48,075 nt of DNA from a virus. This document shows positions 14,186 through 31,919 of this stretch, piece by piece. Each line of letters begins with the position of its first letter. Position 1 is the first letter of the stretch. A program made the position numbers and the translations under genes. The notes under the pieces are model-generated. The model saw only the letters and a program-made list of their open reading frames with translations. It was not told the DNA's origin and did no database searches. Where the stretch lies: positions 1 to 48,075 of IMG/VR virus record IMGVR_UViG_3300024429_000014. One strand, 5' to 3'.

Positions 14186-15988
14186 CTATTTGGTAGTTGT
14201 TGTACGACTTCCAGCCGTATTCATTTCTGCATGAAAACCAACCGCTAAGGCAAATGGATGAGCTGCCGGTTCACCGTTACCATGCGCTGTTGCAATTCTG
14301 TCTAATCGCCAGCAAATATATGCGTTAATTTTTAGGTTAGTTCCGTCTATTGTAGTATCGAAATCTGTCATATAATGCGTCCTGTCAGGTGTATCCGCCG
14401 GGATCGTAGCGTCAACAACCGATGTTACTTGAGCAGAAAATGTTTCATCCGTATCGCTAATAGTGAACTTGAGTTGCCATTGAACACCCTGGGCCGTACC
14501 CTCGCTTCCATTAGTAGCCCAGTGAATATGAGGTATTATTATTGTCCCCTCTTTCCACTTATGCGTAATTTCCGTTGCTCCAATCACATAATCATTAGTA
14601 GCATCGAATGTGTATTGTTGAATGTCGGTTATAAATGTGGTCAGAGTCGGGGCTGTAGAACCCAATTTTGCGCCAATAATCGGCGAAGGCGGAAAATCAT
14701 CAAAAACGGGGAATATTCTTTCGGTCTTATGTTCTTTATTAGTTTCATAAAAACTCTTAATTTCCTCTGCACTAAGCGCTCGGCTGAATATCATTACTTC
14801 GTCCATTTGGCCGTCAAAATTATTCGGCCTTATGAAATTATCCGCGAATCTAACTGGCGAAGTAGAATGAAATAATGTTCCGCTTTCTACTTCGGAATCC
14901 TCTAATACACCATCGACATAAACCTTGACATTTGTACCGTCATAAGTACCTACAATATGATGCCATAAGCCGTCACTTGCCGAAGATGTTCCTATGGCGC
15001 TTTTTATAGTTCCAGTAGTTCCATCAGTAGTAATCGAGAAAATTATTTTACCATCGCCATCGCCATTATTAAGCGCCCAGCTTCGCTGATCTCCGCCTTG
15101 CCATTCTCTGCCAAAATCCTGGTCGCCGGCAATTGTTTTAATCCACATAGAAACCGTAATATTATCCATGTCCAGACTGTCGCTATGTGGTACTATTATC
15201 GTATCAGGATTAGTCGAATCGAAATCCAACGCCGCCCCGAATTTTCCTGCAACCGTGGTAGTTCCTGTTATAGTGCCGTCATTGCCATAACCGGAATAAT
15301 CATCAGCGTCTCCGTCAAACGGCCAATATGCGACCAATAAATAAGACGAAATTGCATTATCATTTGGGTGAAAAATTCCTGATTTTATAATATTATTTAT
15401 ATATAAATTATTCCAGTAAACAGAAGAAGTTCCTAAGTCATCTGTCGAATCCGTATCTGAAACAATATTCCCCCCCGATAAAATGCCGCCTGTTGCTGTC
15501 GTTAAGCCTGTTATGCCGAGAGTCGAGGATATAAGGCCCGCTCCCGTTACGTCAAGTGTTACTGTCGGAGCGACGGCAGAACCTATTCGCGTATTACCTA
15601 CAAGGAATATGTCGCCACCGTCTTTATTAAGATAGGTATCTGAATAAACTCCGCTGACCGCGTTGCCGATTTCTATGTCCGTTACAGCACCGGCTGTATA
15701 TTTTCCTGTTAAATCATCGGATGTCAAAATTCCGCTAACAGTAACATTGGTAAAAATTCCATTGCCTGAGGTTATATTGACGTTAGTCATATCCTGACTA
15801 TCAAAATCTATCGCTCCTGTGGCCGTCCACGAACCGATAGTGACTATTTCCAGTTTTCGCCATTTTAAGTCCGAAGTTCCGAGGTCGTAAGTATCAGTAT
15901 CCCAGGGCTTTATATGGTCTTTAACAAATTCGCCAAAAGCGATAGTCGATAATAACAAAAATATAATTATTTTAAGCTTCGTATTCAT
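14186..15988 (-). CDS. Secreted-type fibre protein with LamG domain
   Basis: 600 residues. It starts with a Sec-type signal peptide (LKIIIFLLLSTIAFG, cleavage near 19). Then come fibre repeats with DLGTSDLKWRKLEI (about 36) and DDLGTSSVYWNNLYI (about 185), a LamG/concanavalin-like sugar-binding domain (about 218-410: AYWPFDGDADDYSGYGNDG, LWHHIVGTYDG, GQMDEVMIFSRAL) and a C-terminal beta domain that may be the tip. Position after the ejection proteins suits a tail fibre or receptor-binding protein, yet virion fibres rarely have signal peptides. Confidence 0.8.
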   Translation of the reverse strand: MNTKLKIIIFLLLSTIAFGEFVKDHIKPWDTDTYDLGTSDLKWRKLEIVTIGSWTATGAIDFDSQDMTNVNITSGNGIFTNVTVSGILTSDDLTGKYTAGAVTDIEIGNAVSGVYSDTYLNKDGGDIFLVGNTRIGSAVAPTVTLDVTGAGLISSTLGITGLTTATGGILSGGNIVSDTDSTDDLGTSSVYWNNLYINNIIKSGIFHPNDNAISSYLLVAYWPFDGDADDYSGYGNDGTITGTTTVAGKFGAALDFDSTNPDTIIVPHSDSLDMDNITVSMWIKTIAGDQDFGREWQGGDQRSWALNNGDGDGKIIFSITTDGTTGTIKSAIGTSSASDGLWHHIVGTYDGTNVKVYVDGVLEDSEVESGTLFHSTSPVRFADNFIRPNNFDGQMDEVMIFSRALSAEEIKSFYETNKEHKTERIFPVFDDFPPSPIIGAKLGSTAPTLTTFITDIQQYTFDATNDYVIGATEITHKWKEGTIIIPHIHWATNGSEGTAQGVQWQLKFTISDTDETFSAQVTSVVDATIPADTPDRTHYMTDFDTTIDGTNLKINAYICWRLDRIATAHGNGEPAAHPFALAVGFHAEMNTAGSRTTTTK

Positions 15989-16142
15989 TTTTCGTACCTT
16001 CGGTTTTGTGTCTTATAATCAAATCACCCGCTACCTTCGCGCGACCGGCAGATACATCAGCGGCGTTGGCTTCTTCTATAACCCAATTTGAAGTTTCTCC
16101 TATCTTCTTATTCGATTTTGGACTATATCTGCCTCTTAACAT
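15972..16142 (-). CDS. Small protein between ejection and fibre genes
   Basis: 56 residues (LRGRYSPKSNKKIGETSNW at the start), hydrophilic, with basic ends and no known motif. It overlaps the fibre start by 17 nt. The ribosome site is weak, but a reading frame continuing from the large ejection gene ends exactly at its ATG (TAATG), so coupled translation is possible. Confidence 0.55.
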   Translation of the reverse strand: MLRGRYSPKSNKKIGETSNWVIEEANAADVSAGRAKVAGDLIIRHKTEGTKNEYEA

Positions 16143-16204
16143 TATTTGCCCAACTCTTTCCTTAATTCTTCAAAATGAATCACGTATAGATTTAAGATAT
16201 AGTT

Positions 16205-19111
16205 TTATTTAATCTTTCGGGACTCAATACGTATTAGAGTCCTTGCTTTTGCTTTAGATATTTCTATTGCCTTCTCGATAAAAAGTATTTGTTCTTCATT
16301 CGACTTTGTTTTCCATTCAGCCTCTTTCATTACTGGCGATAATTGTTTTTGTAATTCTTTGGTGATATATGTTTTGTATTTCTCGTATCGTTCATCGTTC
16401 AAAGTCCAATCCCCAAAAGAACGAGGCAGACTGCCGACCCGTATTTTCAATCGTTCCATTTCTTTTTGAGTGTTTTTCAAAAGGCCGCCTTCTACATCTA
16501 ATCCTGCTACTAATTGTTCTTTTTTTATTTCTTCTAAAAAAGGGAATACTGTCCGCTCGTATGCAGCTTCCCGTTTCAAGTTGTCTAATAATTTATCATC
16601 CCGCCTCAGTAAATCCTGTTCGACTTCATTGAGATTGTCCCATTCTTTGCCATAAGTTGCATTTGCTAAATAATCTTGTTCTCTTGACAATAATTCCCAT
16701 TTAGATGGTTCCCATGTTCCCACGCCCAAACCAAAAAAAGCGGTAGTCGATGTTATAGGTAATACCCCATCCAAACCCTGAAAACGTATAGCATCACTTA
16801 TATCCTGCATAACCATAGGAACAGTTCTTTCCAAAATATTCTTGCCTATGAAAGTTGGTTCAAATACCATTTCTTCTCCCAAAAAAGTCTGCCCTTCAAG
16901 AACGTCCACAGCAAATCCGGCTGGCGGTGAAAGTTTTGTGCGCAAATAGCGCTCTATAATTTCGGCCCTATTTATATTATATAATTTCCCTCGTGGAGTT
17001 TTTGATTGCCCCGACGCTGTTTGTGCTATCAATCTTGAGATTTGGGAATAACCAGCCCAAAAATCATACCGCGTATTTTTATACTTTACTTTGCCAAAAT
17101 TAGAAGAACGTGGGTCTACTTCAACATCAACGCCCTCTATTTGATTAAGTAAAAATAATGCGGTCGATCCTGTGCCTACAAATTTGACCAAATCTCCTAT
17201 AATAATTTTTCTTGCGGCAGGGTTTTTAAGGCTGATAAAAGCATCATAAACTATCTGTGGTCGGGATAGTTGATAACGTGGCGAAAAGAAAAGGGCGTTA
17301 AGATGTGGTGTAATCCCGACATATCGTTCTGGAATAGTGCCTCTGCCGGTAGCATGATTAAGAAATGCAGCCAATCGCGTATATTCTTCCGGATGAGACG
17401 ACCATGACATACCAGCTTTTTCCCAATTTCGAGCAATATCATCAAATACGTTAATTCTTAGTTGGTTACTCATTGTTGTAAATGTCCTCTCAGACCATTT
17501 CACACCAGGTATCAATTCCGCCCAAGACGACAAAAAGGGTTCTTCTCTTGCCGTTATATCTGTCAAACCCCATTGAGTAATTTCTAATTTAGCATGATGT
17601 CGCAATCCGGCATAGCGACTACTTTCTGCCATATCTTCTAAATATCTTGCGTAATTTTTTCCTTTGTCTCCGGGCACGGCCGATTTCATCATCTGTCCGA
17701 AGGATTTTATCCATTGTTTAGGATGGCCCGGTAAAAGCATGATACCTTGTCGCAAAGGGAAAGATAAATCCCACGAAGCCAAAGTAGCACGAGGGATGTT
17801 TAATATGTCCAAAGTATTCTGCCATGCTTTTATGCCAAATGTTCTTTTTTGAAGTATAGCCTTCGCCAGACCAGAACCAAAATGCTTTTCAAGTAAGACT
17901 ACCTCACCCCTTGTTGGCATATCACCACGAAGGGTTTTCAGTAATGCTTCCCCTGTATTGTTATATCGAAAATAAGGCATTTTTGAAGTACGAAGAGACT
18001 CAAACATATAATATCTATCTGTTGGAGATATTTCCGGTGCGGTAAAAGCCGGAACTGAGTATTCGCCCTTTAACGGCCCACGAGATACCATGATCGCCTT
18101 TTCGCCCGTTTGGGCTTTACGGATTTGTTGCGATATTGCTACCCGCCTTGATTTTTCCAAACTAATCATTTTTTCTTTTTTAGGATGTAAACGTTTTGCC
18201 CTCTTTATTCCCGCCGTAAGTCTATCTACGGCTTGTTTGGTAGCAGACGCAAGATTTTGTTTTGACGCAGACTCAATAAGCGGAACATCATCTATTACTT
18301 GATATGCGTCTAAAGGTGTCATATTTTGTATTTGTATTGGCTTATAACCCCTCTTGAGCAGTTGGGCCTTTTCTGCCTTACTTAAAACAATAATTGCGGA
18401 TTCTTTTGCCAAAGTGGTTCTTACCTGCGCAGGTTTCATTTTTGCAACAGTTTTAGAAGAATAAATTCTTTTAGCGGCTTTGATTTCAGTAGACGTCAAT
18501 TTTGCATTACTGAATGTAGAATGTGCTACTCGACTTGCCCGTTGCGCGGCAGGGCCGGATATTAAAAGAGTTTCAAAAGCTACATCCATAACCGGTGTAT
18601 ACCACCAAGGCGGTTTTTCTCTCGATAATGGTTCATACCAATCCTTTGCCATTGCTTCGCCAAAAGTCCTCAATTCCTTTGCAGAACCAGGTACAGGATA
18701 AAGTGCCTTTCTTGACGCCCATATTGACGGAAAAATATCTTTTAGCGCATTAGGGTTTAATATAGCCGTTGTTTTCATTATTTCTGGAATAGGTGATATT
18801 TCTGTTATGAATTTATTTGCTCTATTTATGATAGAACCAACACCTTTTAAGGCGGTCTTAATTGGCCATTTGGTAATATTATGAAATTTTTCGTATCTAT
18901 CAGGTTTTGTCCAACGGGTTTCATCTCTTGGCAAAAAATATTCTCTCCATTTTTGCCCGAAAGTACGCTCCGGCGCAGCGCGAAAGGCCATTTGTTCAGG
19001 AATATCCTCAAATGGAATTGCTGGAACGGCAACTTCTTTAAGCGACTCAATATCCTCGAATGATTCAATGCCACTTATTTCAATTTCTTCAAATGTTTCA
19101 ATTTCGGCCAT
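16205..19111 (-). CDS. Large internal virion / DNA-ejection protein
   Basis: 968 residues, largely helical. Acidic repeats at the N-terminus (IETFEEIEISGIESFEDIE) are followed by helical and coiled regions and a hydrophobic stretch near 650-670 (VGTGSTALFLLNQI). Size and place (last of three genes after the nozzle, like T7 gp14-gp15-gp16) suggest the large ejection protein that enters the cell with the DNA. No lytic transglycosylase motif was seen. Sequence similarity to T7 gp16 is not apparent, so the call rests on order and size. It overlaps the upstream gene by one base (ATG/stop). Confidence 0.65.
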   Translation of the reverse strand: MAEIETFEEIEISGIESFEDIESLKEVAVPAIPFEDIPEQMAFRAAPERTFGQKWREYFLPRDETRWTKPDRYEKFHNITKWPIKTALKGVGSIINRANKFITEISPIPEIMKTTAILNPNALKDIFPSIWASRKALYPVPGSAKELRTFGEAMAKDWYEPLSREKPPWWYTPVMDVAFETLLISGPAAQRASRVAHSTFSNAKLTSTEIKAAKRIYSSKTVAKMKPAQVRTTLAKESAIIVLSKAEKAQLLKRGYKPIQIQNMTPLDAYQVIDDVPLIESASKQNLASATKQAVDRLTAGIKRAKRLHPKKEKMISLEKSRRVAISQQIRKAQTGEKAIMVSRGPLKGEYSVPAFTAPEISPTDRYYMFESLRTSKMPYFRYNNTGEALLKTLRGDMPTRGEVVLLEKHFGSGLAKAILQKRTFGIKAWQNTLDILNIPRATLASWDLSFPLRQGIMLLPGHPKQWIKSFGQMMKSAVPGDKGKNYARYLEDMAESSRYAGLRHHAKLEITQWGLTDITAREEPFLSSWAELIPGVKWSERTFTTMSNQLRINVFDDIARNWEKAGMSWSSHPEEYTRLAAFLNHATGRGTIPERYVGITPHLNALFFSPRYQLSRPQIVYDAFISLKNPAARKIIIGDLVKFVGTGSTALFLLNQIEGVDVEVDPRSSNFGKVKYKNTRYDFWAGYSQISRLIAQTASGQSKTPRGKLYNINRAEIIERYLRTKLSPPAGFAVDVLEGQTFLGEEMVFEPTFIGKNILERTVPMVMQDISDAIRFQGLDGVLPITSTTAFFGLGVGTWEPSKWELLSREQDYLANATYGKEWDNLNEVEQDLLRRDDKLLDNLKREAAYERTVFPFLEEIKKEQLVAGLDVEGGLLKNTQKEMERLKIRVGSLPRSFGDWTLNDERYEKYKTYITKELQKQLSPVMKEAEWKTKSNEEQILFIEKAIEISKAKARTLIRIESRKIK

Positions 19112-20685
19112 TATTTCTTAAAAGTTCCTATCCAGGCATTATAATATTCTTCTGCCTTTTTCATATCCACGCTCTTTAACCTTGAAACTTCTGCCCTAAA
19201 TTCCGGATAAGTCGCTGGTTTAACCTCAATTGGTTTAAGAGGTACTTTGATGCCCTCGACAGGCACTTCGATCACCGGCGGGACTGCTGGTGGCTCTGGT
19301 GGTTCTTTTATCTCTTCTCCTAACGCCAATTCCATCATTCGTGCTATATTCGTATCAGATGGCAATACCGTCTTTAAATGTTCAAGAAAATAAGGTCGTG
19401 CAATAGACCTTCCGATTTCTATAATTTTTTCTCCTGTGGCATCCTGTCTTTTGATTTCCGATTCCCATTCTCTCAATGTTTTTTCGTACAAGAATGACGA
19501 TAATTCATTTTCAAAACCAAGTTCCGGTGACCATCCGAAAATTCTTTTAAAGAATTGTTCAGAGTCTTTTTTATACGGTTCTCGTATTTCTTTCTTTATA
19601 CGTTGTGCCGTAACAGGACTAAGCCCCTTGCCAACCATAGTATCTAATTCATCAGTAAGCCTGCCTGTGTCAATTTTGTTATAAATATCCGCTAATACTT
19701 CACCCTTATCTGTAAATGCTTCTTTGAGTTCTCCTTCAGAATAATTATCAAATGTACGCAACAATGATTCCCATTTCAGTTTTGCATCAAGTGAAAGGCC
19801 TGAAGCAGTAATTGTATCGAATGTTAATTGTGGTTGAGCAGGATTTAATTTATTTATTAGCAAATCTAAAAATCCTGTGCCTATTGCTTCATCTTTTTGA
19901 TCTATTGCCAGTTTTTTTGTTGTTTCAATCATATTTTTGGATGCTTCTACTCTACTACGCATCAATCTTTCAGTTTCAGCATCTAAATTAGTTGTGGTAT
20001 TAAGAAGTTCTTCAGCTTGTGCAATAATATTAGAAGAAGCAATAAAATCACCCACGGATGCTTCCTGACTTGCCTGATTAAGCAGTGTTTGTATTAAAGT
20101 TCCATCTATCTTGCCCGGTACTTTAATTCTTTCAATAGCGGCCTCTTCCGGTGTTATTACGCCAATCTGTTCGGCTTCGTCAATAATCCTGTTGACTTCC
20201 TGAGAATTTCCGGTAAGGTAAGCGCTTGAAAGATTCGTTATATACGCACCCTCTGCTATTTGAACTACTTTTCTATTGGCGAGTTTAGCTACTCCAACTC
20301 TCCACAAAGCCTCCTGACCTTTAAGCCATTCATCGTATCTTTTAGCACCTGTTAGATTCTTAGGCCTATGAACATTCATCCCTTCAAATGCTTCAGTAAA
20401 TCTGTCCTGATATGAATCCGGGTCTACATTGGTTTTTTGTGCCAGTTCAAATGCCTGTATGTCCGCATTAGCGAGATTCCTTGCGGTAGCAAATTGACTT
20501 ATGCCTTCTGCTTGCTCTATTTTGAACAAAGCTTCACCCAATGTACCTATACCTCGACCCAAAGCACCTAAGCCCCTTGCCTCTATCTCTGCACCGGTAT
20601 CTGCTATGTCAAAGGGTATAGGTACACCACCTACCCTGCCGGATGGTGTTACACGTCTTGAAATTCGTCTTGGTATTCGTGCCAT
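19111..20685 (-). CDS. Internal virion / ejection protein
   Basis: 524 residues, helical, with a conserved-looking start (RRVTPSGRVGGVPIPFDIADTGAEIEARG), a coiled middle, and a proline-rich hinge (about 455-475, EPPEPPAVPPVIEVPVEG) before the end. The start resembles internal proteins of other short-tailed phages, and the position matches T7 gp15. It begins three bases after the stop of the gp14-like gene. Confidence 0.7.
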   Translation of the reverse strand: MARIPRRISRRVTPSGRVGGVPIPFDIADTGAEIEARGLGALGRGIGTLGEALFKIEQAEGISQFATARNLANADIQAFELAQKTNVDPDSYQDRFTEAFEGMNVHRPKNLTGAKRYDEWLKGQEALWRVGVAKLANRKVVQIAEGAYITNLSSAYLTGNSQEVNRIIDEAEQIGVITPEEAAIERIKVPGKIDGTLIQTLLNQASQEASVGDFIASSNIIAQAEELLNTTTNLDAETERLMRSRVEASKNMIETTKKLAIDQKDEAIGTGFLDLLINKLNPAQPQLTFDTITASGLSLDAKLKWESLLRTFDNYSEGELKEAFTDKGEVLADIYNKIDTGRLTDELDTMVGKGLSPVTAQRIKKEIREPYKKDSEQFFKRIFGWSPELGFENELSSFLYEKTLREWESEIKRQDATGEKIIEIGRSIARPYFLEHLKTVLPSDTNIARMMELALGEEIKEPPEPPAVPPVIEVPVEGIKVPLKPIEVKPATYPEFRAEVSRLKSVDMKKAEEYYNAWIGTFKK

Positions 20686-20688
20686 CTT

Positions 20689-21219
20689 TTAACGCTTCCC
20701 TGGAAAAAATGGTTTTAATCCTCGTTCAAATCTTGATTGCCTTGCAGTCCCAACAGTAGTAAGTATTGTACCGGCAGCGGCTAAAGTTCCAGCTCTTGCC
20801 GCAGCCACGCCTCTGGCTCTGGCAGCAGCACCTCGTGCCCTAAATATGCCAGCCTCAGCCCTGCGCTGTTCGGCACTTATAATGCCTTCCCTTAAAATAG
20901 TCAGGCGTTCAGCCTCTAAGATTTCAGCGGTCTCTACAAGTACCGATAGAGGCGTCCCACGTACCTGCACGCCTGCTTTAGCTATAGCGGCCCTTTGCCT
21001 GCCCTTTAAAGCCTTTCCCTCTCTTTCCTGTCTTCTGGCGGCTTCTACAGCAGCCTGTTGCTCTGCCTCGGCCTGCCGTTCGGCTAATAAAGCGTTTCTC
21101 TGAGCTATGGCCTCTTGAGTCTTGCCTGCTGCTCTCGCTGCTCGGCCTGCCTGGACCTGGCTAACAGCAGTAGTAACACCGCCTGCGATTATCATACCTA
21201 TTATTACCGCTTCTGCCAT
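20689..21219 (-). CDS. gp14-like internal virion protein
   Basis: 176 residues from the ATG at 21219. The N-terminus is a membrane-like segment (AVIIGMIIAGGVTTAVS), followed by an Ala/Arg/Gln-rich coiled helix and the box AGVQVRGTPLSVLVETAEI, which is found in gp14-type core proteins of podoviruses. Such proteins form part of the ejection channel in the outer membrane. The ATG overlaps the stop of the GNAT gene, with AAAGGTGG before it. Confidence 0.8.
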   Translation of the reverse strand: MAEAVIIGMIIAGGVTTAVSQVQAGRAARAAGKTQEAIAQRNALLAERQAEAEQQAAVEAARRQEREGKALKGRQRAAIAKAGVQVRGTPLSVLVETAEILEAERLTILREGIISAEQRRAEAGIFRARGAAARARGVAAARAGTLAAAGTILTTVGTARQSRFERGLKPFFPGKR

Positions 21220-21698
21220 TATTCCACCTTTGCGTAACTTATACAATCAACCTTATCAGGCGTTAACTTCCTGGCTATACCTTCGATCTTAAAACCTAAG
21301 TGCCTCAATAATGTATGAGCCTCAGGTACACCGATTCGCGCGTGAGCTTCGAGTCTGTGCAGATTATTGTCTTTTATCAACTTACCCAAACCATCTTTTA
21401 TAACTTCGTAAGCGCCCATTGGATATTTATCGACTTCGTAAGATAGCATTAACCATACCTCCGCTACACCCGGCCATTTCCAATCTATTCCGCCGCAACC
21501 TACTATATTGTCTTTTACAACGCCTGTAATACACTTGCCATTAGCTTCTCTTGTCTTTGCCAGTTCCTGCAAATTATCATCGCCATAAGCCTTTAATCCA
21601 AATTCTTTAATACCATTTTCGATAACCCAAATCATATCTTCGGCACGGAAAGATCGTATCCCTGTAAATAAATTTATTTTTTCCTTTACAGTTTCCAT
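21219..21698 (-). CDS. GNAT-like protein (T7 gp13 position)
   Basis: 159 residues with a GNAT fold: an N-terminal FRAEDMIWVIENGI, the strand pair ITGVVKDNIVGCGGI and VAEVWLMLSYEV, and the end AHTLLRHLGFKIEG. Phage proteins of this kind (gp13 of T7-like phages) act in virion assembly and probably lack acetyltransferase activity. No ribosome site precedes the ATG; TTGAAC-N17-TGGAAT lies just upstream on the minus strand and overlaps the promoter of the divergent 77-residue gene. Confidence 0.8.
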   Translation of the reverse strand: METVKEKINLFTGIRSFRAEDMIWVIENGIKEFGLKAYGDDNLQELAKTREANGKCITGVVKDNIVGCGGIDWKWPGVAEVWLMLSYEVDKYPMGAYEVIKDGLGKLIKDNNLHRLEAHARIGVPEAHTLLRHLGFKIEGIARKLTPDKVDCISYAKVE

Positions 21699-21713
21699 TT
21701 TTTATGCTAAATT
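21685..21713 (+). promoter_or_regulatory. Promoter of the 77-residue plus-strand gene
   Basis: TTTACA, 17 bases, TAAATT with a TGC just before the -10 (extended -10). The ATG is six bases after it, with no ribosome site. Confidence 0.5.
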
Positions 21714-21719
21714 CCAAAT

Positions 21720-21953
21720 ATGATAAAATTTAAGTTCAAAAAATGGTGGTATAATTTAATACCAAAGTATCGCAAATGGTTGAGAGATTGTGAAAAAGTC
21801 ATAAATTCACCCGAAGTCCAAAAGGACATTGAAAACCAACATCGCGAAGCAATGTACAATTTTGCAGTATTCGGACAACATCCTCGACCACCCAAAAAAG
21901 CTATTGGGCAATTTCTCAATAAAGACATTAAAGACATTTTTGAAGTCTCCTAA
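21720..21953 (+). CDS. Plus-strand cargo gene in the tail cluster (1)
   Basis: 77 residues, basic and rich in Trp and Lys at the start (FKFKKWWYNLIPKYRKWLR), then a helical middle and a Pro-rich KKAIGQF box. Not recognised. It lies between the nozzle C-terminal piece and the GNAT gene, opposite to all neighbours; its stop overlaps the convergent stop at 21950 by 4 nt. It has its own promoter and seems leaderless, so it is probably expressed separately from the virion genes. Confidence 0.65.
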   Translation: MIKFKFKKWWYNLIPKYRKWLRDCEKVINSPEVQKDIENQHREAMYNFAVFGQHPRPPKKAIGQFLNKDIKDIFEVS

Positions 21954-22603
21954 TCCGCATTTGCATTAACGTCCAAATTAAACGACAATATCGTCATAGG
22001 CAAAGGTTGGGTCTGCTGTGCCAATATATCGCCAGACCTTGAATAGCCGTCCTTAAGTGGTATCTCTTTGTAGCCTGTAAATAGAGCAGCAGTTCCAGTT
22101 GGAATATCCTGCATGGTGCTCGTACTACCTCCTACCTCTCCGCCTATCGTTTCAAAGACATTAAATACACCCCTGTTTATTTTCTTGGTAACGGTTAATC
22201 CCATACCTTGTAAATCTAATTTCATAGGCTTGACAATAGATGTATACGTCATGCCAACCATTGGATTAGTCAATGAAGTTACAGGGGCTGTAATAGAACC
22301 ATTGGAAACTATCTCCGTACTTATAACTATTCCTTGCTGCATTACCGACACGGATTTACCTTCTAAATGCTCTAAGCCGGTAATGGTAGCACTTCCAGCA
22401 ACTACAGACTGAACTACGTAACCCTCTGATACGGTCTCTGTAAACTGAACATAATCAGAACCGGCACTTTCAATAGCTAATTTGAAAGAATCTGTATCTT
22501 CATCGGCTGTGTAGTAAAAAGCATCCAGCCACGATACATAAACGTAAGTATTACTTGCTGTTGCATAACCATGGTTAGGGATGTAAATGACCAAATCCGC
22601 CAT
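21950..22603 (-). CDS. Tail nozzle protein, C-terminal piece (gp12-like, split)
   Basis: 217 residues. From about residue 74 it matches the C-terminal part of T7 gp12-type nozzle proteins: ITGLEHLEGKSVSVM, VGMTYTSIVKPMKL, KKINRGVFNVFET, and a closing SGDILAQQTQPLPMTILSF. That part normally follows directly after the middle domain of the same protein, which here is a separate gene ending at 23279. The first 70 residues (IPNHGYATASNTYVYVS) resemble insert domains also present in the other half. It has its own ATG with AAGGAA. Confidence 0.8.
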   Translation of the reverse strand: MADLVIYIPNHGYATASNTYVYVSWLDAFYYTADEDTDSFKLAIESAGSDYVQFTETVSEGYVVQSVVAGSATITGLEHLEGKSVSVMQQGIVISTEIVSNGSITAPVTSLTNPMVGMTYTSIVKPMKLDLQGMGLTVTKKINRGVFNVFETIGGEVGGSTSTMQDIPTGTAALFTGYKEIPLKDGYSRSGDILAQQTQPLPMTILSFNLDVNANAD

Positions 22604-22861: not shown

Positions 22862-22862
22862 T

Positions 22863-23261
22863 TTAATATCCCCATGCCTGCCAATGAATACTCGTAAAAC
22901 CCGGATTGTTAGGTTGAAAAAAAACAAGCGCTGATGTTGTCGCCGTTTTAAGATATGGTGGAAATTTTTGTAAAGCATCGTTTTTAAACCCAGTGCCTGA
23001 AGCGCTTATAATAGCAGTTTCAAAAGCAGTACCAAATGTAACAGTGGCGCCTGTTCCGCTTTGGGCCACGACGCCATGTTTAAAAACTAAACCGTTAGGA
23101 AAAGTGACACTTTCTTCTCCAGCATATGTTGTTGGCGACCATTCCATATCCGTAAGCATCTGGGTCTTTTTGTGTGTACCATCGGCGTCGTGTCCAACGT
23201 CAATGTTAGCTTTCATTTTTGTATTCCAGTCTGTAACACCGTTACTTGGCCATTCTGCCAT
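22863..23261 (-). CDS. Short tail-fibre protein (gp53-like C-terminus)
   Basis: 132 residues. The end resembles the receptor-binding tip of gp53-type tail fibres: FPNGLVFKHGVV, a strand with VTFGTAF, and the closing FTSIHWQAWGY. The start (WPSNGVTDWNTKMKANIDVGHDADGTH) looks like a short attachment segment. It probably binds to the tail end as a small fibre. AAAGGAG lies before the ATG; it sits between the two pieces of the nozzle gene. Confidence 0.75.
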   Translation of the reverse strand: MAEWPSNGVTDWNTKMKANIDVGHDADGTHKKTQMLTDMEWSPTTYAGEESVTFPNGLVFKHGVVAQSGTGATVTFGTAFETAIISASGTGFKNDALQKFPPYLKTATTSALVFFQPNNPGFTSIHWQAWGY

Positions 23262-23278: not shown

Positions 23279-25780
23279 TTAAGCGGCTACTCCGCCAGCT
23301 AATCCATTATTGCAAGACCCATCGTTGCATCTCACTGTATCAGATGCGTTATTTACATTATTTTGGGTATACGCAAGGTCGGAAAGTTTCGCACCATCCA
23401 AAAATACAAAGTCGCCCATATAAGTAAATTTCTGACTTGTAAATCTTTCTACATACCTCACTATTTCATTGTTTATAGTTCTCTTTACCGTAACCCACAC
23501 TTCATCTTCGCTATTAACTCCACCGTAAACTATAGCTACAGACTCAAATAAACCGTCTGTTACTACCCTCGCCCAACTAAATACGTTCTGGTCTCTCTCA
23601 TAAGTCATTATAGCCATTACGCCGTCATTTCTGACGCACCACAACATCGGGTCAGGAGTTCTCTGAAATGCCATATCAACTATTCCTGATTTGGTGATGT
23701 GTTCTGCAAATACCGTTAAGTCATCAGCTTTATGGGCATCGGCTTCATAGTTATATAAAAATTCCCTTATCTTCCTGCCGCCTCGCTGCACGAATAGTAT
23801 CGCCTGATTGACTATTAAAGCTCTTATATTTTCAGATCCGTAAGTAGTTTGTAGTTTAGCTTGAACATTGGTCGGAGTAAGAGCTTCACTATCTTTGGAT
23901 GCGCCAAGTAAATGTTCACCACCGACCGTACCTAAAACCACAGATGCTTTCGGTACAGACCATTGTATTTCATTCTGCTGACCAGAACCCACTAAAGAAA
24001 ATGTAATTGGATCACTATCGTCTGTGCCTCTTAAATAATTAATCCAATCCCCAATCTCCGAACCCCAGACATTCAGAGGTTCAGACGAGTTGCCTGCAAA
24101 AATAAGTCTGTCCTCTGGCGACATCGTAACAGACTTAGGCCAACCTCTGTAATTACTCCAAGCTCCTTCAGCCCATGCTGAAGTAGCGGTTGTAGCATCA
24201 ACAGCCGCCTTGACTATACCAGTAGCTACAGTTACACTGGTGTAACCAGTTATTTCAACTATTCCATGATTTTTTATACTTCTGGAATAGAACTTAACCT
24301 CACAATTTTCCCCATCATCACCAGTATCATACAAAACAAGTCTATAATCGGCTTCCTGTATTTCCTCTGTCTCTGACGCTGATATATTTTTATTGTCTGC
24401 ACTAATTGCAATATGAACAACTTCCCAGCCAGCAGCATCATGAGCAGCACCTAAAGTCTCGTTTCTTTCTAATTTCAAAGTACCAGTCCAAGTTTCTAAA
24501 GTTGTTAAATCCCATTTCTGGTTCTTTTTGAGTCGAAGAGGGCCGGCCCAACTTGTGTTTTCTACAACGCTTTGTCCGCCACCAGTTCCGTATTCATTAG
24601 TCAAGGTTTGTATCACAGAACCGCCTGTTACTGTTTGGATAATATCAAACAATGCGCCCGTATGGGCTTTTTCTACGACTTCAGTAACTTCGCCGGTAGC
24701 ATCATTAGCTACATAATCCATTAAGATATAAAAAGTATCAGCGGCTACTTTTGTTATATTCCATTGTCCATCATAACTTGTTGTTCCTGTTATTTGTACA
24801 ATATCAGCCGTACTCAATAAGTGCGCCGCAGATGTAGTAACCAAAGTAGACGTACCAAAAGTGTGAGAAGCAAATGCACTTATTGAAATCGTTGGACTAC
24901 TTGCCTTATGCCCTGCCGTTACACCATCTACAAATAAAGCCTTTGAAGACGTTAAAGTCGTTGCGCCACCTAAAGTTAAAGTTCCTGAAGGCGTTATTGT
25001 CCATGCGGTATCTACGTTCTGGTCTCTGAACGGGCCGGTACGGTAATCTGTAACTTCAAAAGTCCAGTTTGTATCTCCCGTTCTTGATAGTTTTCTCGGC
25101 TCGTAATCATCGTGTGTGATATACATAACATCAGCAGAATGTTCTACTTTCAAATCAGGTATGTCAGCAGTCAGATACGGCGTGATTATCTCATAAACTG
25201 TAGCAACAGAGTCGTCATCATCGGCAGTGTAAGCCGTAGGAAAATCTGTGGCGCCAGCAGTCCCATCTAATGAAAATGTAGTAGCGGTAATAACAGTTAT
25301 AGTGTATTCAGTTGCATGATTGCCATTGTAATTGGCTTCTGTAGGCCCCACAAGACCATCAAATCTAACTACATCACCGGTAGAGTACCCGTGGTCTGCG
25401 GCAGTCGTAACAACAGATACACCGGCAGGCTTCGTAAAGCCACTCACATTTACACTGGTATTCATTACTCTATTACCAGACTTGAATACCCTAATCTTTT
25501 GGTTCTCGAAACATAATGTGTAAACATTAGATATCGACCTCTCAAATGCTACCATTCTGCCTTTAGCAGTATCGTCGCCAGGTGCGTTTTGTGCCGTAGC
25601 TGACTGAGTGGCAATATATTCTAATCCAGGTCGTCTTTGCGCCCCACCGTAAACTAATGGAAAGAAGTTCTCCATTATCCGACAACCAGCAACATGTTTT
25701 TGCTGGTCGCTTCTGTCGGCCATCAATCCTGATAATTCGCCGGCACCAAAGGACTGAATTATTTTATGTGTTTTTGGCAT
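23279..25780 (-). CDS. Tail nozzle protein, main piece (gp12-like, lacks the C-terminus)
   Basis: 833 residues from the ATG at 25780, which overlaps the upstream stop (TAATG). The start is typical of T7 gp12/tail tubular B proteins (IIQSFGAGELSGLMADRSD, then CRIMENFFPLVYGGAQRRPG), and the middle has the usual IFAGNSSEPLNVWGSEIGDW and VPKASVVLGTVGGEHLLG boxes. It stops shortly after RYVERFTSQKF...GDFVFLDG, where complete family members go on with a GLDHLEGK-type domain; that part is the separate gene 21950-22603. It has extra domains (about 105-420). Confidence 0.85.
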   Translation of the reverse strand: MPKTHKIIQSFGAGELSGLMADRSDQQKHVAGCRIMENFFPLVYGGAQRRPGLEYIATQSATAQNAPGDDTAKGRMVAFERSISNVYTLCFENQKIRVFKSGNRVMNTSVNVSGFTKPAGVSVVTTAADHGYSTGDVVRFDGLVGPTEANYNGNHATEYTITVITATTFSLDGTAGATDFPTAYTADDDDSVATVYEIITPYLTADIPDLKVEHSADVMYITHDDYEPRKLSRTGDTNWTFEVTDYRTGPFRDQNVDTAWTITPSGTLTLGGATTLTSSKALFVDGVTAGHKASSPTISISAFASHTFGTSTLVTTSAAHLLSTADIVQITGTTSYDGQWNITKVAADTFYILMDYVANDATGEVTEVVEKAHTGALFDIIQTVTGGSVIQTLTNEYGTGGGQSVVENTSWAGPLRLKKNQKWDLTTLETWTGTLKLERNETLGAAHDAAGWEVVHIAISADNKNISASETEEIQEADYRLVLYDTGDDGENCEVKFYSRSIKNHGIVEITGYTSVTVATGIVKAAVDATTATSAWAEGAWSNYRGWPKSVTMSPEDRLIFAGNSSEPLNVWGSEIGDWINYLRGTDDSDPITFSLVGSGQQNEIQWSVPKASVVLGTVGGEHLLGASKDSEALTPTNVQAKLQTTYGSENIRALIVNQAILFVQRGGRKIREFLYNYEADAHKADDLTVFAEHITKSGIVDMAFQRTPDPMLWCVRNDGVMAIMTYERDQNVFSWARVVTDGLFESVAIVYGGVNSEDEVWVTVKRTINNEIVRYVERFTSQKFTYMGDFVFLDGAKLSDLAYTQNNVNNASDTVRCNDGSCNNGLAGGVAA

Positions 25781-26343: not shown

Positions 26344-27299
26344 CTCGTCTGTTCGTATAAATCTCTAATATTCGCAGTAGTTCGGACTAAACTATAAAGT
26401 CTTACATCTGATATTGCTCCGTCAAAATAGCTTGTTGTCGGCGGGATGATTTCTTTAACACTTACTTCGTCCAGGATAACATCAGTAGTCTGTACACCAT
26501 CACTTAGCACCTGGACAGTGAGCGCGTTAGTATTGGTCGCTGTTACATCCCATGAATTAGCACCCTGCGACGCTTCGTTGCCTACCCCGCCGAGAAACAC
26601 GACGACAGCACCGTCTGTAACTGTCAGATTATCAAATTCGGTGGTTACTCTATACTTGTGTGTAGCAATAATATTGGTAATCATTGTGGCTGACAAAATA
26701 TCATTACCGCCGTACCCGACTTGGGTATGATTCGCAGCGTTCGCCTGTGCAACTGAATCCTCCCAGAAATTTCCATAAGTCCAGCCGCCGCCGCTTTCAA
26801 GAAGAGTTGCGTTCTCGACTTTCTCACTACCCAAATCCGCCGTCGCCCGTGCTATACTAAGACCGGAGGCGTTCCTTGCCGTTGTACTTGTAATCCCTAT
26901 TAAATGCCAGTTAGCTGTTATAGCGGTTGCCACTGCACCATCGACATATAGAACATTCGTACCACCAGAAAAGCCGCCCTTGGTAAGTACACCATTAACG
27001 ATAGATAAAAAATTAAGATTCAAATCTATCGGATAATCGGTTACGTTGATGGCATTAGGCTTGACCCATAAAGTGACTGTCTTAACACTCGTCGGGCCGG
27101 TGCCAATATCTATATACTGAGTATTGGCGGCAATGAAATCAAAACCAGGAGGCGATGAAACCGGAGTACCAGTACTACCGGATAGAGTTCCGGTGTAACC
27201 ACCAAAAGGATAATCAAATATAGTTCCTTCCCATAATTTCAGATGCAGGACTTCTGAGGCGTCCGAAACCTCTGGCGGATGTAAACGTCTTTTATCCAT
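26325..27299 (-). CDS. LamG-like tail protein
   Basis: 324 residues. The ends form a concanavalin/LamG-like fold (LWEGTIFDYPFGGYTGTLSG, then TVTLWVKPNAI, NWHLIGITSTT, and FDGAISDVRLYSLVRTTANI at the end), split by an extra beta domain (about 155-280, with a CBM-like ITNIIATHKYRVTTEFDNL). It probably binds sugars and is part of the tail or its appendages. GGAG precedes the ATG. It is the second LamG protein of this phage (the other is at 14186). Confidence 0.75.
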   Translation of the reverse strand: MDKRRLHPPEVSDASEVLHLKLWEGTIFDYPFGGYTGTLSGSTGTPVSSPPGFDFIAANTQYIDIGTGPTSVKTVTLWVKPNAINVTDYPIDLNLNFLSIVNGVLTKGGFSGGTNVLYVDGAVATAITANWHLIGITSTTARNASGLSIARATADLGSEKVENATLLESGGGWTYGNFWEDSVAQANAANHTQVGYGGNDILSATMITNIIATHKYRVTTEFDNLTVTDGAVVVFLGGVGNEASQGANSWDVTATNTNALTVQVLSDGVQTTDVILDEVSVKEIIPPTTSYFDGAISDVRLYSLVRTTANIRDLYEQTRWRYGV

Positions 27300-27300
27300 T

Positions 27301-27678
27301 CTAAACTCCTCTAAGAGTTACGGCAACTGTTGCAGTTGCCTGCGGATCATCAAAGGCTAATACTACATTCACTTCATGCGCAAGCGGTTCGCTAACACTG
27401 TAGATATATGTATCACTCTCAGCCAAGTCAGTTACAGACCAAATCGTATTGTCGCCGTTGTCAGTCAAAGATACGTCCGTAGTACCTTCTGCATTTGCCA
27501 TATCAGTCAAAGTAACAATTATTTTCTGCAACAATCCATTTACAACAACAACCGCGGTTCCTGTTGTGTCGCCACTTATCAAAGAGAATGTCGTTATTTT
27601 TTCCCAAACAGGATGCCTTTCCAATGTATCCGTACGTCTATCGTACGAAGCCACAACTCCCGTACTTACTGTTGGCAT
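27301..27678 (-). CDS. Small beta-rich structural protein
   Basis: 125 residues, almost entirely beta strands rich in Val and Thr (TGTAVVVVNGLLQKIIVTLTD, ending TATVAVTLRG). Position between the gp11-like adaptor and the LamG protein suggests a minor virion or decoration protein. AAGGAG precedes the ATG. Confidence 0.7.
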   Translation of the reverse strand: MPTVSTGVVASYDRRTDTLERHPVWEKITTFSLISGDTTGTAVVVVNGLLQKIIVTLTDMANAEGTTDVSLTDNGDNTIWSVTDLAESDTYIYSVSEPLAHEVNVVLAFDDPQATATVAVTLRGV

Positions 27679-27688
27679 AATAAACTCC

Positions 27689-28501
27689 TTATTCTATCGT
27701 TTGTCTTGTATGTCCGGCAGCAATCCAGCTATCGCTGAACTCCTGGACATATTTTTCCCTGTTATCCATACCAATTGCTCTTGGTAAAATTATTTCTTCA
27801 TATTCTCGCAACAGTCTGTCTCCCAACGCGCTGTTCTGAACCAAATCATAAGCCAGATCAGCGGCAAGTTTCAATCTAAGCGCATTTACAAAATGGGCGG
27901 GAAAGTTTGCAACATCAAGAGTAGCACTGGTGTGAGAAAAAATATAATCCATATCAACTTCAGTATCTTCCTGGTTGGTAAGTATCCAATCGCCTTTTCT
28001 TACCCAGTCGGTCAATTCCACGCCGCCAACTTTGACTGAAGTTACCCTTGTGCAGGTAGGACGTGCAAAACGAGCCAAATACTTTTCAGAAGTCCAGTAT
28101 GCTGTTCCGGTATCCGTAGCCGTAAAAACAGCGTCTATAGCAAAAGACACAGTTGTCAATACCGAATTAACATCATAGTCACCATCAATATTAGTATCGT
28201 CAAGTAACACCCTATCACCAGCGATAAGAGTATGAGTCCCAGTTACAGTAGTTGTAGAACCCGTTACCAAATCAGCCAGCGCCGTTATCGTTATGGAATC
28301 TCTGTCGATACCGTGAAAAGTCCTGTTAGCAAATTGCCAACCCTTTTCAGGGCCGCTGTCAAGAATATCTTCAAGAGTCAAATCCCAAATAGCATTGACC
28401 TTATCTGCCGTGGCCGTACCGTCAGTATCAACGTCAGTAAAGATAGCCTCACCGACTTTGAGCATCGCCCAGTTGGCAATTGAAGTTTTTGACGTTGCGA
28501 T
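27689..28501 (-). CDS. gp11-like tail adaptor (tail tubular A), non-ATG start
   Basis: 270 residues if translation starts at ATC (28499-28501) as proposed. A perfect AGGAGG (28507-28512) lies five bases before this codon, while the first ATG in frame (28465) has no ribosome site and would remove 12 residues (ATSKTSIANWA and neighbours) that belong to the usual N-terminus of this family. The C-terminal helix with LRLKLAADLAYDLVQNSALGDRL is typical of tail tubular A proteins, which join portal and nozzle. Two beta insert domains lie between (about 60-130). ATT at 28504 is an alternative start. Confidence 0.8.
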   Translation of the reverse strand: MATSKTSIANWAMLKVGEAIFTDVDTDGTATADKVNAIWDLTLEDILDSGPEKGWQFANRTFHGIDRDSITITALADLVTGSTTTVTGTHTLIAGDRVLLDDTNIDGDYDVNSVLTTVSFAIDAVFTATDTGTAYWTSEKYLARFARPTCTRVTSVKVGGVELTDWVRKGDWILTNQEDTEVDMDYIFSHTSATLDVANFPAHFVNALRLKLAADLAYDLVQNSALGDRLLREYEEIILPRAIGMDNREKYVQEFSDSWIAAGHTRQTIE

Positions 28502-28510
28502 AATAACCTC

Positions 28511-28828
28511 CTATTCTGTTATATCTTTAGGGTCTTCAACTGCTGACATAAATGGCGCAGGCATCGGCGGATTCGGCTTTATAGGTTGAGCAACTTTCGG
28601 CTGACTGGATGCAACGTTCATTTGTTGCTGATAATTAAGTAACTTTGACCGTTGTTCAATAATCGCAATTTCTACCGCTTGCCTCTGTGCAAATCTGACG
28701 AGCAACTTGTACTCTGCCTTTTTTATCCGTACATCTTTAGTAAAGACAAGCCACCATATCGAACCGGCAGCAACCACCAATACACATATGACAATAATAA
28801 TTTTCTTCAAGCTCACATTAACACTCAT
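28511..28828 (-). CDS. Membrane-anchored protein, spanin-like layout
   Basis: 105 residues from the ATG at 28828 (GGAG before it). One membrane segment (about 9-31, IIIVICVLVVAAGSIWWLVF), a helical coiled region, then a Pro-rich end (PIKPNPPMPAPF). Inner-membrane anchor, coil and proline tail recall i-spanins, but no overlapping lipoprotein gene is present, so the role is open. Its stop overlaps the AGGAGG of the adaptor gene. A terminator lies upstream. Confidence 0.65.
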   Translation of the reverse strand: MSVNVSLKKIIIVICVLVVAAGSIWWLVFTKDVRIKKAEYKLLVRFAQRQAVEIAIIEQRSKLLNYQQQMNVASSQPKVAQPIKPNPPMPAPFMSAVEDPKDITE

Positions 28829-28841
28829 TTCTTTCTCCATT

Positions 28842-28874
28842 AAAAAGATAAAAGGGGCAACTCGTTGCTGCCCC
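28842..28874 (-). terminator. Rho-independent terminator after the 1010-residue gene
   Basis: On the minus strand GGGGCA and TGCCCC pair (28854-28874), followed by TTTTATCTTTTT. It lies just after the stop of the long fibre-like gene, so expression of the following tail genes must rely on read-through or anti-termination, or on another promoter. Confidence 0.85.
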
Positions 28875-28886
28875 TTAAATTAAACA

Positions 28887-31800
28887 TTAAACACCATCAG
28901 GCGTAATCGCTCCAGTAAAAGCACCGGCATAAGTATAGTTTACCAATGTCCAAGCATTAGCCGTATAACAGGTAAATACAGAAATTGTATTTGCTGGAAT
29001 AGCGGCCTCGTTAGTATCACCACCAGAGCAATCGACTTGATTTATCGTAGGTGCGTTCAAATCTGGTGTCTGCATTTCAAATCCATTTGCACCAACATAT
29101 ACTGTGATTATATTACCAACTACGGCTACAGGAAGTGAGCAGATGTTATTTGCCGCTCCCGATGTTACCGTAACATACGCTGCACCAGATGGTATTACCG
29201 AAGTTCCACCCTCGAAAGCGGCATTAGCTTCTCGTGCAATAGAAGAACTTTGAATACCTGCTGTTGCTGTAGCAACACCAGTCAAAGTGGTGGTGCCCGT
29301 ACTGACAATACTTGTTGTAACTGTAAGAGTATCGTCAATCAGAGCGCCGCCGGTATCAATCCATAATCCTTTGTTGTTGGCAGAAGCTATACTTACAGCA
29401 TATTCAGTACCGCCACCGGAAGTTGTGCCATCAATAAATCGGGCACAAATACCAGTTTGACCTGATATGTTAGTACCGGTTGCGGCAATATATAGCATAG
29501 TAGCACTCGTTTGGGCAGCAGTACCGTCGTTGAGTATATGAATCAACCCTTTGTTTGCAGCACCAATCCAACCGGCACCAGCAGAGGCCGTCATCGCAAA
29601 TTGCGGGACGGTTGAACTTGCTACACCAACAATGTGAATACCCCCAGCAGTCGTGGCATTAGGTGTAACCTGAAGAACATCAGCAGAACCAGCGCCAGTA
29701 AGCTGTACAGTATCAGAATCGATATCTGCACTTGTAATAGCCAAAAGCGTTCCATCAGTTGCGCCTTGTCCATTTATGACCATAGGGCCGTTCAATGACA
29801 GGTTTCCTGTAGTAGCAGTTGCATCTATCTCTACTGCGTAAGCACCTGCTCTTGCCGTACCACTATCAACAAATCGAGCGAGATAACCCATTGCAGCGGC
29901 CTTTGGTTGCCCTGTGGTATTCGTACAAATCAACAAAGATGCGTCAACGTGAGCTAAAGCAGAATCACTCTTAATGTGTACAAGTCCAACATTACTTGCA
30001 CCAGACCAACCGGCAGTTCCATCAAATACTGCATCAGACGTAGTTCCGCTTGCCTTAGCGGTACAAGTAAGACCGATAGCAGTTGTAGCATTAGGTATTA
30101 ACGCAAGAACAGAGGCAGTACCAACACCTGTAAGTTCTACAGTATTGTTATCAGTATCAGCACTTACGATGTCTAAAAGAACGCCGTCAGTAGCACCCTG
30201 ACCAGCAATACTCATCTGGCCATTTAGCATCAGGCACGGCGTAGTAGCAGTCACCTCTATTTCCATCGCATAAGCGTCAGTTACGGCAGCACCGGTCTTC
30301 TGCTCAAGACGAAGCAAGAAACCTTCGGAAGCAGCTTTAGGTGCTGCTACCTGTTGTATGAATAATAAAGAAGCACCTTCGTGGTCGTTCGCCGTATCGG
30401 CCTTCAGATGCAGCATACCAATGTCGTCTGCACCAATCCAGTTGCCAGTCGCACCGTCAATTACCTGAACCCATACTGTTTGACTTGCGGCAGATACCAA
30501 TTCTAAAACTTGTGAATCAGCTTCACCCGCGGTCATTTTCAAAGCAGCGCCAGCACCCTTATGAGTAACAACGATAGTATCAGAGTCTGTACCCTGATCA
30601 ATACCGGTTACGGCCAGTAACGTACCAGCACTGTTAGCACCAGCTATAGTCATATTGTTGTTCAAGTTCAAGCAACCTTGAGTATTGGCGGTTTCTATCT
30701 CCACCGCCCAACTCGTTGCCGTAGCCGAGCCAGTATGAATAAAACGAGCCAAGAAACCTTCGGAAGATGCCGCCGGAGTGCAGGCACTTGTAATGGCGAA
30801 CAGTCCGCCACCGGCATTAGCATTAGCCGTAGCGCCGCCAATAATCTCTACCATAGCAACATCGTCAGAACCACCTACCCAATCGCCGGTATCACCATCA
30901 ATATGCACAACAGTAACGGTGGAATTAGCCTTGCCAACAATATTCAGAGCAACAGTATCGGTGTCGTCGCAAGTAATTTGCACAGCATCACCAGTGCCTT
31001 CGTTGTGTATGTCAACTGCATCTGCATTACCGTTGGTATCATTGCCCACTATCTGTACTAAAGCTGCACCAGGCTGGTCTTGACCGGTGATGGCCAAAAT
31101 ACCATTCATCACAAGAGCGGGCTGTGTGGCAGGTACTTCAATCTCAACAGCACTACCATTTGTTCTTGCGGTCCCCGTAGAGACAAATCGAGCGAGAAAA
31201 CCTTCGGCGCCAGTTACCGGCTGGCCTGTCTGGTGAAAGACCATCAAACCGGTAGCCCCGGCGTGATTATATGCGGCATCCGAGTTAATAAGAATCTGGC
31301 CGACATTATCACCAAGATTCATATTGTTGGTAGTTGAATCCAAAGTAATAAGAGCAGTAGTTCCCGCAGCTTTGCCTATCATATTGATACCACCACCAGT
31401 TGTCGCACCAGGCGAAATCTGTATAGCATCTCCGGTGTTAGTATTTACAATAGTCATGGCATCAGTGTTTCCAGTCGTATCGTCTTGCGTCAAAATCAAC
31501 AGAACATTATTGTCAGTTGTATCATTGTCTAACGTAACGGCACTTCCATCGACATCAATAGTATTACCAGCATCATACGCCTCGTCTAATGTAGACGACG
31601 TAGAGGCAGCAATTGTTTGCCACGAAGATGTGTAATATTTCAAGTTGCTCGTGTCGCTGTCGTAGAAGATAGTTCCTGCAGTTGTCAATGCTTCGCCGGT
31701 TGCTGTGTCGAGACCGGAGAAATACAGAGAACCAATACCAGTTGTACCATCTATAGCGTCCTCAACTTCTACGCACCAATCCAAAAATTTATCCTTAGGC

Positions 31801-31919
31801 TTTCCCGTGAATCGGTATGCGTTTTTCCAGGTCTTTTTAGAATCGATACTTGGGTCTAACGCGCTAAAAGCAGGCAAGGCCATAAAGACAATGAAGAGCA
31901 AAATTAATAACTTTTTCAT
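28887..31919 (-). CDS. Long repetitive fibre-like protein with signal peptide
   Basis: 1010 residues. A Sec-type signal peptide (about 1-20, cleavage after AFS) starts it. After SSTLDEAYDAGNTIDVDG comes a set of about six repeats of roughly 120 residues built of motifs such as TGAALKM, GWIGA, GLVHIKSD, GYLARFVDSGTA, YAVEI and LNGPMVINGQGATDG; these look like a beta-helical stalk. The end (ISVFTCYTANAWTLVNYTY) resembles phage fibre and decoration tips. Position after the glycosyltransferase among head genes is odd for a tail fibre; it may be a head fibre or a secreted/adhesive protein. Confidence 0.75.
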   Translation of the reverse strand: MKKLLILLFIVFMALPAFSALDPSIDSKKTWKNAYRFTGKPKDKFLDWCVEVEDAIDGTTGIGSLYFSGLDTATGEALTTAGTIFYDSDTSNLKYYTSSWQTIAASTSSTLDEAYDAGNTIDVDGSAVTLDNDTTDNNVLLILTQDDTTGNTDAMTIVNTNTGDAIQISPGATTGGGINMIGKAAGTTALITLDSTTNNMNLGDNVGQILINSDAAYNHAGATGLMVFHQTGQPVTGAEGFLARFVSTGTARTNGSAVEIEVPATQPALVMNGILAITGQDQPGAALVQIVGNDTNGNADAVDIHNEGTGDAVQITCDDTDTVALNIVGKANSTVTVVHIDGDTGDWVGGSDDVAMVEIIGGATANANAGGGLFAITSACTPAASSEGFLARFIHTGSATATSWAVEIETANTQGCLNLNNNMTIAGANSAGTLLAVTGIDQGTDSDTIVVTHKGAGAALKMTAGEADSQVLELVSAASQTVWVQVIDGATGNWIGADDIGMLHLKADTANDHEGASLLFIQQVAAPKAASEGFLLRLEQKTGAAVTDAYAMEIEVTATTPCLMLNGQMSIAGQGATDGVLLDIVSADTDNNTVELTGVGTASVLALIPNATTAIGLTCTAKASGTTSDAVFDGTAGWSGASNVGLVHIKSDSALAHVDASLLICTNTTGQPKAAAMGYLARFVDSGTARAGAYAVEIDATATTGNLSLNGPMVINGQGATDGTLLAITSADIDSDTVQLTGAGSADVLQVTPNATTAGGIHIVGVASSTVPQFAMTASAGAGWIGAANKGLIHILNDGTAAQTSATMLYIAATGTNISGQTGICARFIDGTTSGGGTEYAVSIASANNKGLWIDTGGALIDDTLTVTTSIVSTGTTTLTGVATATAGIQSSSIAREANAAFEGGTSVIPSGAAYVTVTSGAANNICSLPVAVVGNIITVYVGANGFEMQTPDLNAPTINQVDCSGGDTNEAAIPANTISVFTCYTANAWTLVNYTYAGAFTGAITPDGV

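Follow-up and report, generated by a model that had tools for sequence, protein, structure and literature searches.

Predicted Sec signal peptides on two fibre-like proteins of an epsilon15/BPP-1-like podovirus and on tail proteins of its relatives

Assembly of tailed phages takes place, in the textbook account, wholly in the cytoplasm. The described phages closest to the one studied here, the epsilon15- and BPP-1-like podoviruses (Uetakevirus, Rauchvirus), encode a portal, scaffold/protease, capsid, cement protein, tail tubular proteins A and B, ejection proteins and a fibre in a fixed order; their own structural proteins lack signal peptides, and the slot between their cement and tail tubular A genes holds short proteins. 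None of the 59 structural genes examined across epsilon15, BPP-1, HTVC010P and Microcystis phage Mel-JY33 was signal-peptide-like. Phage DGR target proteins, unlike bacterial ones, have also been described without signals (PMC6199706).

Our study analysed the whole 48,075-nucleotide stretch, hereafter the window, of the virus record IMGVR_UViG_3300024429_000014 (IMG/VR, 48 kb). Its structural genes lie on the minus strand in the epsilon15/BPP-1 order, starting with terminase (phrog_675), portal (phrog_332), scaffold/protease (phrog_3742/458), capsid and a cement-type protein, and continuing with a glycosyltransferase-like protein, the fibre-like protein P0002, a spanin-like gene, tail tubular protein A, the nozzle, internal virion proteins and a second fibre-like protein, P0001. 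The window phage is an epsilon15/BPP-1-like podovirus, with capsid, portal, cement and tail tubular proteins A and B homologous and in order, although its capsid is only ~30% identical to those of epsilon15 and BPP-1. The genes around the two fibre-like proteins are placed as follows:

33057..34088, minus strand: major capsid protein, epsilon15/BPP-1-like (phrog_212)
32572..33033, minus strand: cement-type protein at the BPP-1 Bbp16 position (phrog_427)
31916..32548, minus strand: glycosyltransferase-like protein of the phrog_1574 family, immediately upstream of P0002
27689..28465, minus strand: tail tubular protein A without signal peptide (phrog_394)
23279..25780, minus strand: tail tubular protein B, or nozzle, without signal peptide in the window phage (start MPKTHK; phrog_376)
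16205..21246, minus strand: internal virion (ejection) protein genes (20689 is phrog_418; 19111 and 16205 by position)

The nozzle family is split in the window between two minus-strand ORFs, 23279-25780 (family positions 1-548) and 21950-22603 (positions 525-710), and a small gene at 22863-23261 sits between them; the split looks real, because the C-terminal piece (MxDLxxxxxxHGYS...) is encoded separately in three relatives too (L019, L025 and L034). From its tyrosine integrase (PF00589; 8749-9729, minus strand), the phage is probably temperate. Just downstream of P0001, a small protein with one C-terminal membrane helix and no Pfam match (13893-14129, minus strand) is a possible XhlA-type holin. 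Defence-system models gave no match, and a host search with the capsid profile and an outer-membrane barrel as its sole markers returned no relatives in 84,980 genomes (one per species).

The initial annotation had assigned signal peptides to two proteins, one of 600 residues with a LamG domain and one of 1010 residues with repeats. Both open reading frames and both signals were confirmed, on the minus strand, as were the domain and the repeats. Their features are listed here, a slash marking the predicted cut as in the rest of the text:

28887..31919, minus strand: P0002, a 1010-aa fibre-like protein between the cement/glycosyltransferase-like genes and tail tubular protein A, with syntenic homologues in ~20 distinct relatives
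31928..31932, minus strand: Shine-Dalgarno AAGGA, 8 nt 5' of the ATG of the P0002 signal peptide
31863..31919, minus strand: predicted signal peptide of P0002, MKKLLILLFIVFMALPAFS/, mature chain from ALDPS
31734..31862, minus strand: conserved mature N-terminal domain of P0002 (xxxxSxDxxKTxxNxYxxTGxPKDxxLDWxxExE), from alignments, common to signal-less orthologues
29184..31382, minus strand: five ~145-aa repeats of P0002 (fibre shaft), period 145-148 aa
14186..15988, minus strand: P0001, fibre-like, 600 aa, in the tail-fibre position that follows the internal virion genes
15997..16000, minus strand: Shine-Dalgarno AAGG, 8 nt 5' of the P0001 ATG
15932..15988, minus strand: predicted signal peptide of P0001, MNTKLKIIIFLLLSTIAFG/, mature chain from EFVKD
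14756..15202, minus strand: LamG/concanavalin-like domain of P0001, residues 263-411 (PF13385, 4e-28)
14189..14710, minus strand: C-terminal tip domain of P0001, a beta sandwich with weak TNF/C1q-like fold matches, common to signal-less phage proteins

Signal peptides were recognised by our own heuristic (n-, h- and c-regions plus the -3,-1 rule), not by SignalP; by this rule, both N-termini have a positive n-region, a hydrophobic h-region and small residues at -3/-1. Random N-termini drawn from the same proteins matched the observed score in 0 of 20,000 trials for P0002 and in 5 of 20,000 for P0001. Given this rarity and the Shine-Dalgarno sequence at each signal start, we consider the observation sound, and the idea that fibre-like proteins of a tailed phage bear real Sec-type signals is supported. 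The starts do not lie downstream of the hydrophobic stretch, a possibility raised at the outset, since AAGGA and AAGG stand 8 nt before the signal-peptide ATGs; no plausible alternative start was found between signal and conserved domain, and codon 46 of P0002, a TTG that is likewise preceded by a TAAGGA, lies within that domain. Wrong start choice was therefore rejected. A lipoprotein anchor was rejected as well, because P0001 and P0002 have no lipobox, [LVI][ASTVI][GAS]C, where the h-region ends; the 35050-35388 protein has it. The net charge of the first 15 mature residues is -2 in P0001, which is normal, and +1 in P0002, whose family has a mean of ~+1, an unusual value for efficient export. 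P0002 also retains 11 cysteines, an odd number if its compartment is an oxidising one.

Fibre-type features are present in both proteins: the repeats in P0002, and in P0001 the LamG domain and a TNF-like tip. The tip model is modest (pLDDT 64, pTM 0.64), and its best matches are viral collagen-like proteins and tail-fibre tips (including the SETP3 tail fibre), TNF-like folds being weak matches. It also resembles collagen-repeat proteins of the giant viruses Catovirus and Klosneuvirus (~20% identity, TM 0.6), the model suggesting a tip domain common to phages and giant viruses. P0002 shows in alignments the conserved N-terminal domain and exchangeable C-terminal parts looked for in a virion fibre. 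PDB sequence searches with P0002 and with the P0001 tip domain found nothing; P0002 has no PHROG match and hence no known virion-attachment domain of its own, and none was found in P0001, whose PHROG matches are confined to the LamG region.

Two scans with the capsid protein yielded ~45 loci from relatives, all key genomes being metagenomic. After the cement gene, and the glycosyltransferase gene where present, these relatives have a slot with a fibre-like gene that combines a conserved N-terminal block with exchangeable parts, whose structure, as read from the letters, includes long repeats, beta-helix-like and jelly-roll-like regions, coiled coils and a short tip. Of the 29 relatives with a readable slot gene, 19 have the signal peptide (SP+) and 10 lack it (SP-); the AlphaFold model of one short SP- orthologue (L016) has a pLDDT of 44. 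The SP- proteins begin at the SP+ cut position, as in (M)AFTNSADTP versus G/AFTNSADN, or in ...AATSFG/AFTNSADNSRATFRNGYAW (L022, SP+) versus MAFTNSADTPRETFHNGYQW (L024, SP-). Nearly all SP+ proteins have a Shine-Dalgarno sequence before the signal, with the AAGGA motif and 8-nt spacing of P0002 in most SP+ relatives, and every SP- protein has one before its mature N-terminus. Mapped on the capsid tree, signal state switches a minimum of 4 times, and 7 times on the best tree, with clustering no greater than that of shuffled labels; near relatives therefore exchange the two forms, for example L016 (SP-) and L018 (SP+). The adjacent glycosyltransferase gene occurs with both forms and shows no link with signal state.

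The slot is also filled by a signal-bearing protein in two independent lineages, L082 and vir555. In vir555, a deposited environmental genome, 5 of 16 proteins are signal-bearing, among them the slot protein and large fibre-like ones; of these five, one is probably an ordinary membrane protein. This genome (L088, BK063671) is assigned to Methanomicrobiales and has three signal-bearing fibre-like proteins after the tail fibre and one in the cement/tail tubular A slot. A second deposited environmental genome, MW202898, has a signal on its last fibre gene, read from Met12 with a good Shine-Dalgarno sequence.

The comparison of SP+ and SP- forms bears on the suggestion that the N-terminus is a signal-like anchor. 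The segment would then stay uncut and either tether the proteins to the inner membrane as the site of particle assembly or act as a membrane-active peptide in the virion, which would agree with the very hydrophobic h-regions (best 11 residues mostly at mean Kyte-Doolittle 3-4) and with the positive charge after the segment in the P0002 family. However, every family member has allowed -3/-1 residues, and the segment is entirely missing from 10 of the 29 orthologues. Moreover, an allowed signal peptidase I-type site after the h-region falls at the Met+1 equivalent of the SP- orthologues exactly in 13 of 22 SP+ proteins and to within one residue in 18 of 22; ~3.5 allowed sites per 18 positions would give ~19% exact coincidence by chance, and the proteins are related, not independent. 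The anchor is accordingly disfavoured, and we judge an uncut segment to be improbable.

In related phages, signals were also found on recognisable tail proteins. The fibre-position gene of L048 encodes MKKLIIVLLLIVCSYSVA/TMSSQSAKTS..., an 18-aa signal on a phrog_1640/phrog_13893 tail-fibre attachment domain, and from residue 19 onward the protein aligns with these tail-fibre families from profile position 2; the same domain has a signal in L103 and L104 (AAFA/TVST versus (M)TVSS). Signals on this domain are rare in general, at 3 of 78 decidable cases: among its best 80 loci, 75 lack a signal ((M)TVSST...), three have one (L048, L103 and L104) and two are undecidable. The phrog_376 nozzle has a signal in L048 (MIKRVLIFLLLCSNLFG/ATSIINAFNAGE; family match E 4e-209), in the two assemblies L037/L038 (...LTGVLLA/VKTFKIIQTFNAGE versus (M)PKTHKIIQSFGAGE in the window) and in L180, which is L103 (MKKVIFILLLCSLCFA/ETLTPIQLNFNSGE). 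Three of these phages (L048, L038 and L180) also bear a signal on the fibre-position protein, L037 being too short to tell. No signal peptides were found on capsid, portal, scaffold, tail tubular protein A or the large ejection proteins; the N-terminus of ejection gene 20689 (phrog_418) is hydrophobic, as across its family, and those of the two large ejection proteins are not.

Two of the nozzle-signal phages have further peculiarities. In L048 (G001:15865-23624), five genes that make up nearly the whole tail region except tail tubular protein A encode signal-bearing proteins, and the protein at 19804-21039 has dockerin-like DLN..W repeats, which we take as a hint at planctomycetes. The L038 nozzle (G002:11359-14991), besides its signal-like N-terminus, has an inserted LamG domain and measures 1210 aa versus ~710.

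It is important to consider that hydrophobic N-termini can be produced by a wrong start, an assembly error or chance. Every locus is a metagenomic contig, and the nozzle start has no Shine-Dalgarno sequence in L048 and a weak one in L038. Against an artefact of this kind stand the conserved Shine-Dalgarno sequence at the signal start, the random trials described above, the ~20 distinct loci and the slot signals of L037/L038 and of L048/L049, each present in two separate assemblies. We strongly disfavour this reading and regard it as very improbable.

The envelope genes to which the initial annotation had drawn attention proved real, both the lipoprotein at 35050-35388 and the outer-membrane barrel:

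12733..13485, plus strand: outer-membrane barrel with its own signal peptide (PF13505, 6e-7; strong Shine-Dalgarno AAGGAG)

This barrel gene lies on the opposite strand, is moron-like, and had no relative in the bacterial genomes searched (84,980, one per species). The main rival explanation is that P0001 and P0002 are exported and are not virion parts: an infected or lysogenic cell would carry them on its surface or release them, and they would serve as adhesins, as decoy receptors, to block superinfection, or as secreted fibres that degrade polysaccharides and aid spread, with borrowed virion-type domains. Such a role would agree with real signal peptides in a phage that also has an outer-membrane barrel and lipoproteins, with the beta-helix SP+ proteins of relatives, with Lom as an exported phage barrel (PMC12309495), and with the cellular precedents of the Bdellovibrio MAT fibres (PMC10769870) and of WceF, a Tat-exported tailspike-like enzyme (PMC7949094). 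On the other hand, the genes sit inside the structural operon, and the same slot and N-terminal domain occur with and without the signal. Display on the infected cell, as first proposed, could still apply to P0001 and P0002 taken alone; it is not the best reading, because related phages join the same signal to the tail-fibre attachment domain and the nozzle, which have no obvious use at the cell surface, and we consider non-virion export unlikely.

The data are better explained by Sec signals that are cleaved from distal parts of the virion than by membrane anchors or by surface proteins that are not in the virion. We propose, at about even chances, that P0001 and P0002 belong to the virion as appendages and are synthesised as precursors whose Sec/SRP signal peptides are cleavable, P0001 being a tail fibre and P0002 perhaps attached to the head or cement. 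In support, SP+ and SP- genes of the P0002 type share both the slot and the mature N-terminal domain inside the structural operon; the signal-less nozzle of the window phage, the positive start of the mature P0002-family chain, the 11 cysteines of P0002 and the rarity of signals on the tail-fibre attachment domain weigh against it. That related phages join the same kind of signal onto known tail parts suggests that the particle receives its outermost pieces late, after they have been made outside the cytoplasm. The precursors would be translated late from the structural operon, the gene position and Shine-Dalgarno sequences being seen directly and the timing presumed. After targeting to SecYEG, signal peptidase I would trim them to the N-terminus of the signal-less orthologues minus Met, as the site coincidence implies, and they would then fold outside the cytoplasm, probably as trimers. 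Heads with portal, tail tubular protein A and ejection proteins, whose genes lack signals, would be built in the cytoplasm. Least certain is the final step, in which the exported distal parts would be added to the particle either at lysis, once the inner membrane has been breached, or across that membrane. For some relatives the dividing line would shift one step inwards, with the nozzle exported too. To our knowledge, no tailed phage finishes its tail outside the cytoplasm.

A broader proposal, which we offer tentatively and with some doubt, is that these phages form a two-compartment podovirus group. Heads, portal and inner tail ring would be cytoplasmic; fibres, and in some members the nozzle, would be periplasmic after Sec export and signal removal; the halves would be joined late, at or across the inner membrane, and the distal parts may be glycosylated in the periplasm. 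The last point refers to a gene of the Wzy_C (O-antigen ligase) superfamily found directly after the SP+ slot gene at L041:13315-14865, L042:13281-14825 and L082:1870-3060, within the structural operon of two distant phage lineages; the L041 and L042 membrane proteins also have TPR. Wzy_C relatives act on the periplasmic side, and the gene would suit glycosylation of an exported fibre. It could instead serve serotype conversion, because epsilon15 also has a gene of the O-antigen ligase family. A wider scan gave no new loci; as a marker of the compartment the gene was set aside, its three occurrences, all after SP+ and none seen after SP- slot genes, being too few.

The kinds of component described here, podovirus fibres, a nozzle and Sec signals, are already known. 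A search of open literature turned up no account of Sec signals on the virion proteins of tailed phages, fibres and tail tubular proteins included. Three virion proteins unrelated to each other, the slot fibre, the tail fibre and the nozzle, have signals placed at their native N-terminus, and these have been gained or lost repeatedly; if the proposed export is true, whether virion parts are exported is open to selection, and mature N-termini in virions and unfinished particles before lysis are to be expected. It would bear on the evolution of receptor binding, on fibre glycosylation and on annotation, since such genes are easily filed as host-surface morons.

Among known systems, podovirus tail fibres with a phrog_1640-type attachment domain share that domain with L048, L103 and L104; in these three the initiator Met gives way to an N-terminal Sec-type signal, whereas 75 of 78 decidable homologues have no signal, and P0001 and P0002 themselves lack the domain. 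The MAT fibres of Bdellovibrio are likewise phage-fibre-like trimeric adhesins in which a signal peptide is followed directly by a conserved domain and by variable tips, but they are bacterial genes outside any phage structural operon and not virion parts. The exported morons of lambdoid phages of the Lom/Bor type are phage-encoded, have signals and are bound for the host envelope; unlike P0001 and P0002 they are neither virion-like nor located among structure genes, and their true analogue is the window barrel at 12733-13485. Coat proteins of filamentous phages are virion proteins that are synthesised as Sec precursors and serve outside the cytoplasm. Those phages, however, are membrane-extruded filaments, whereas the window phage is a podovirus, tailed and with dsDNA, that encodes a spanin-like protein for lysis.
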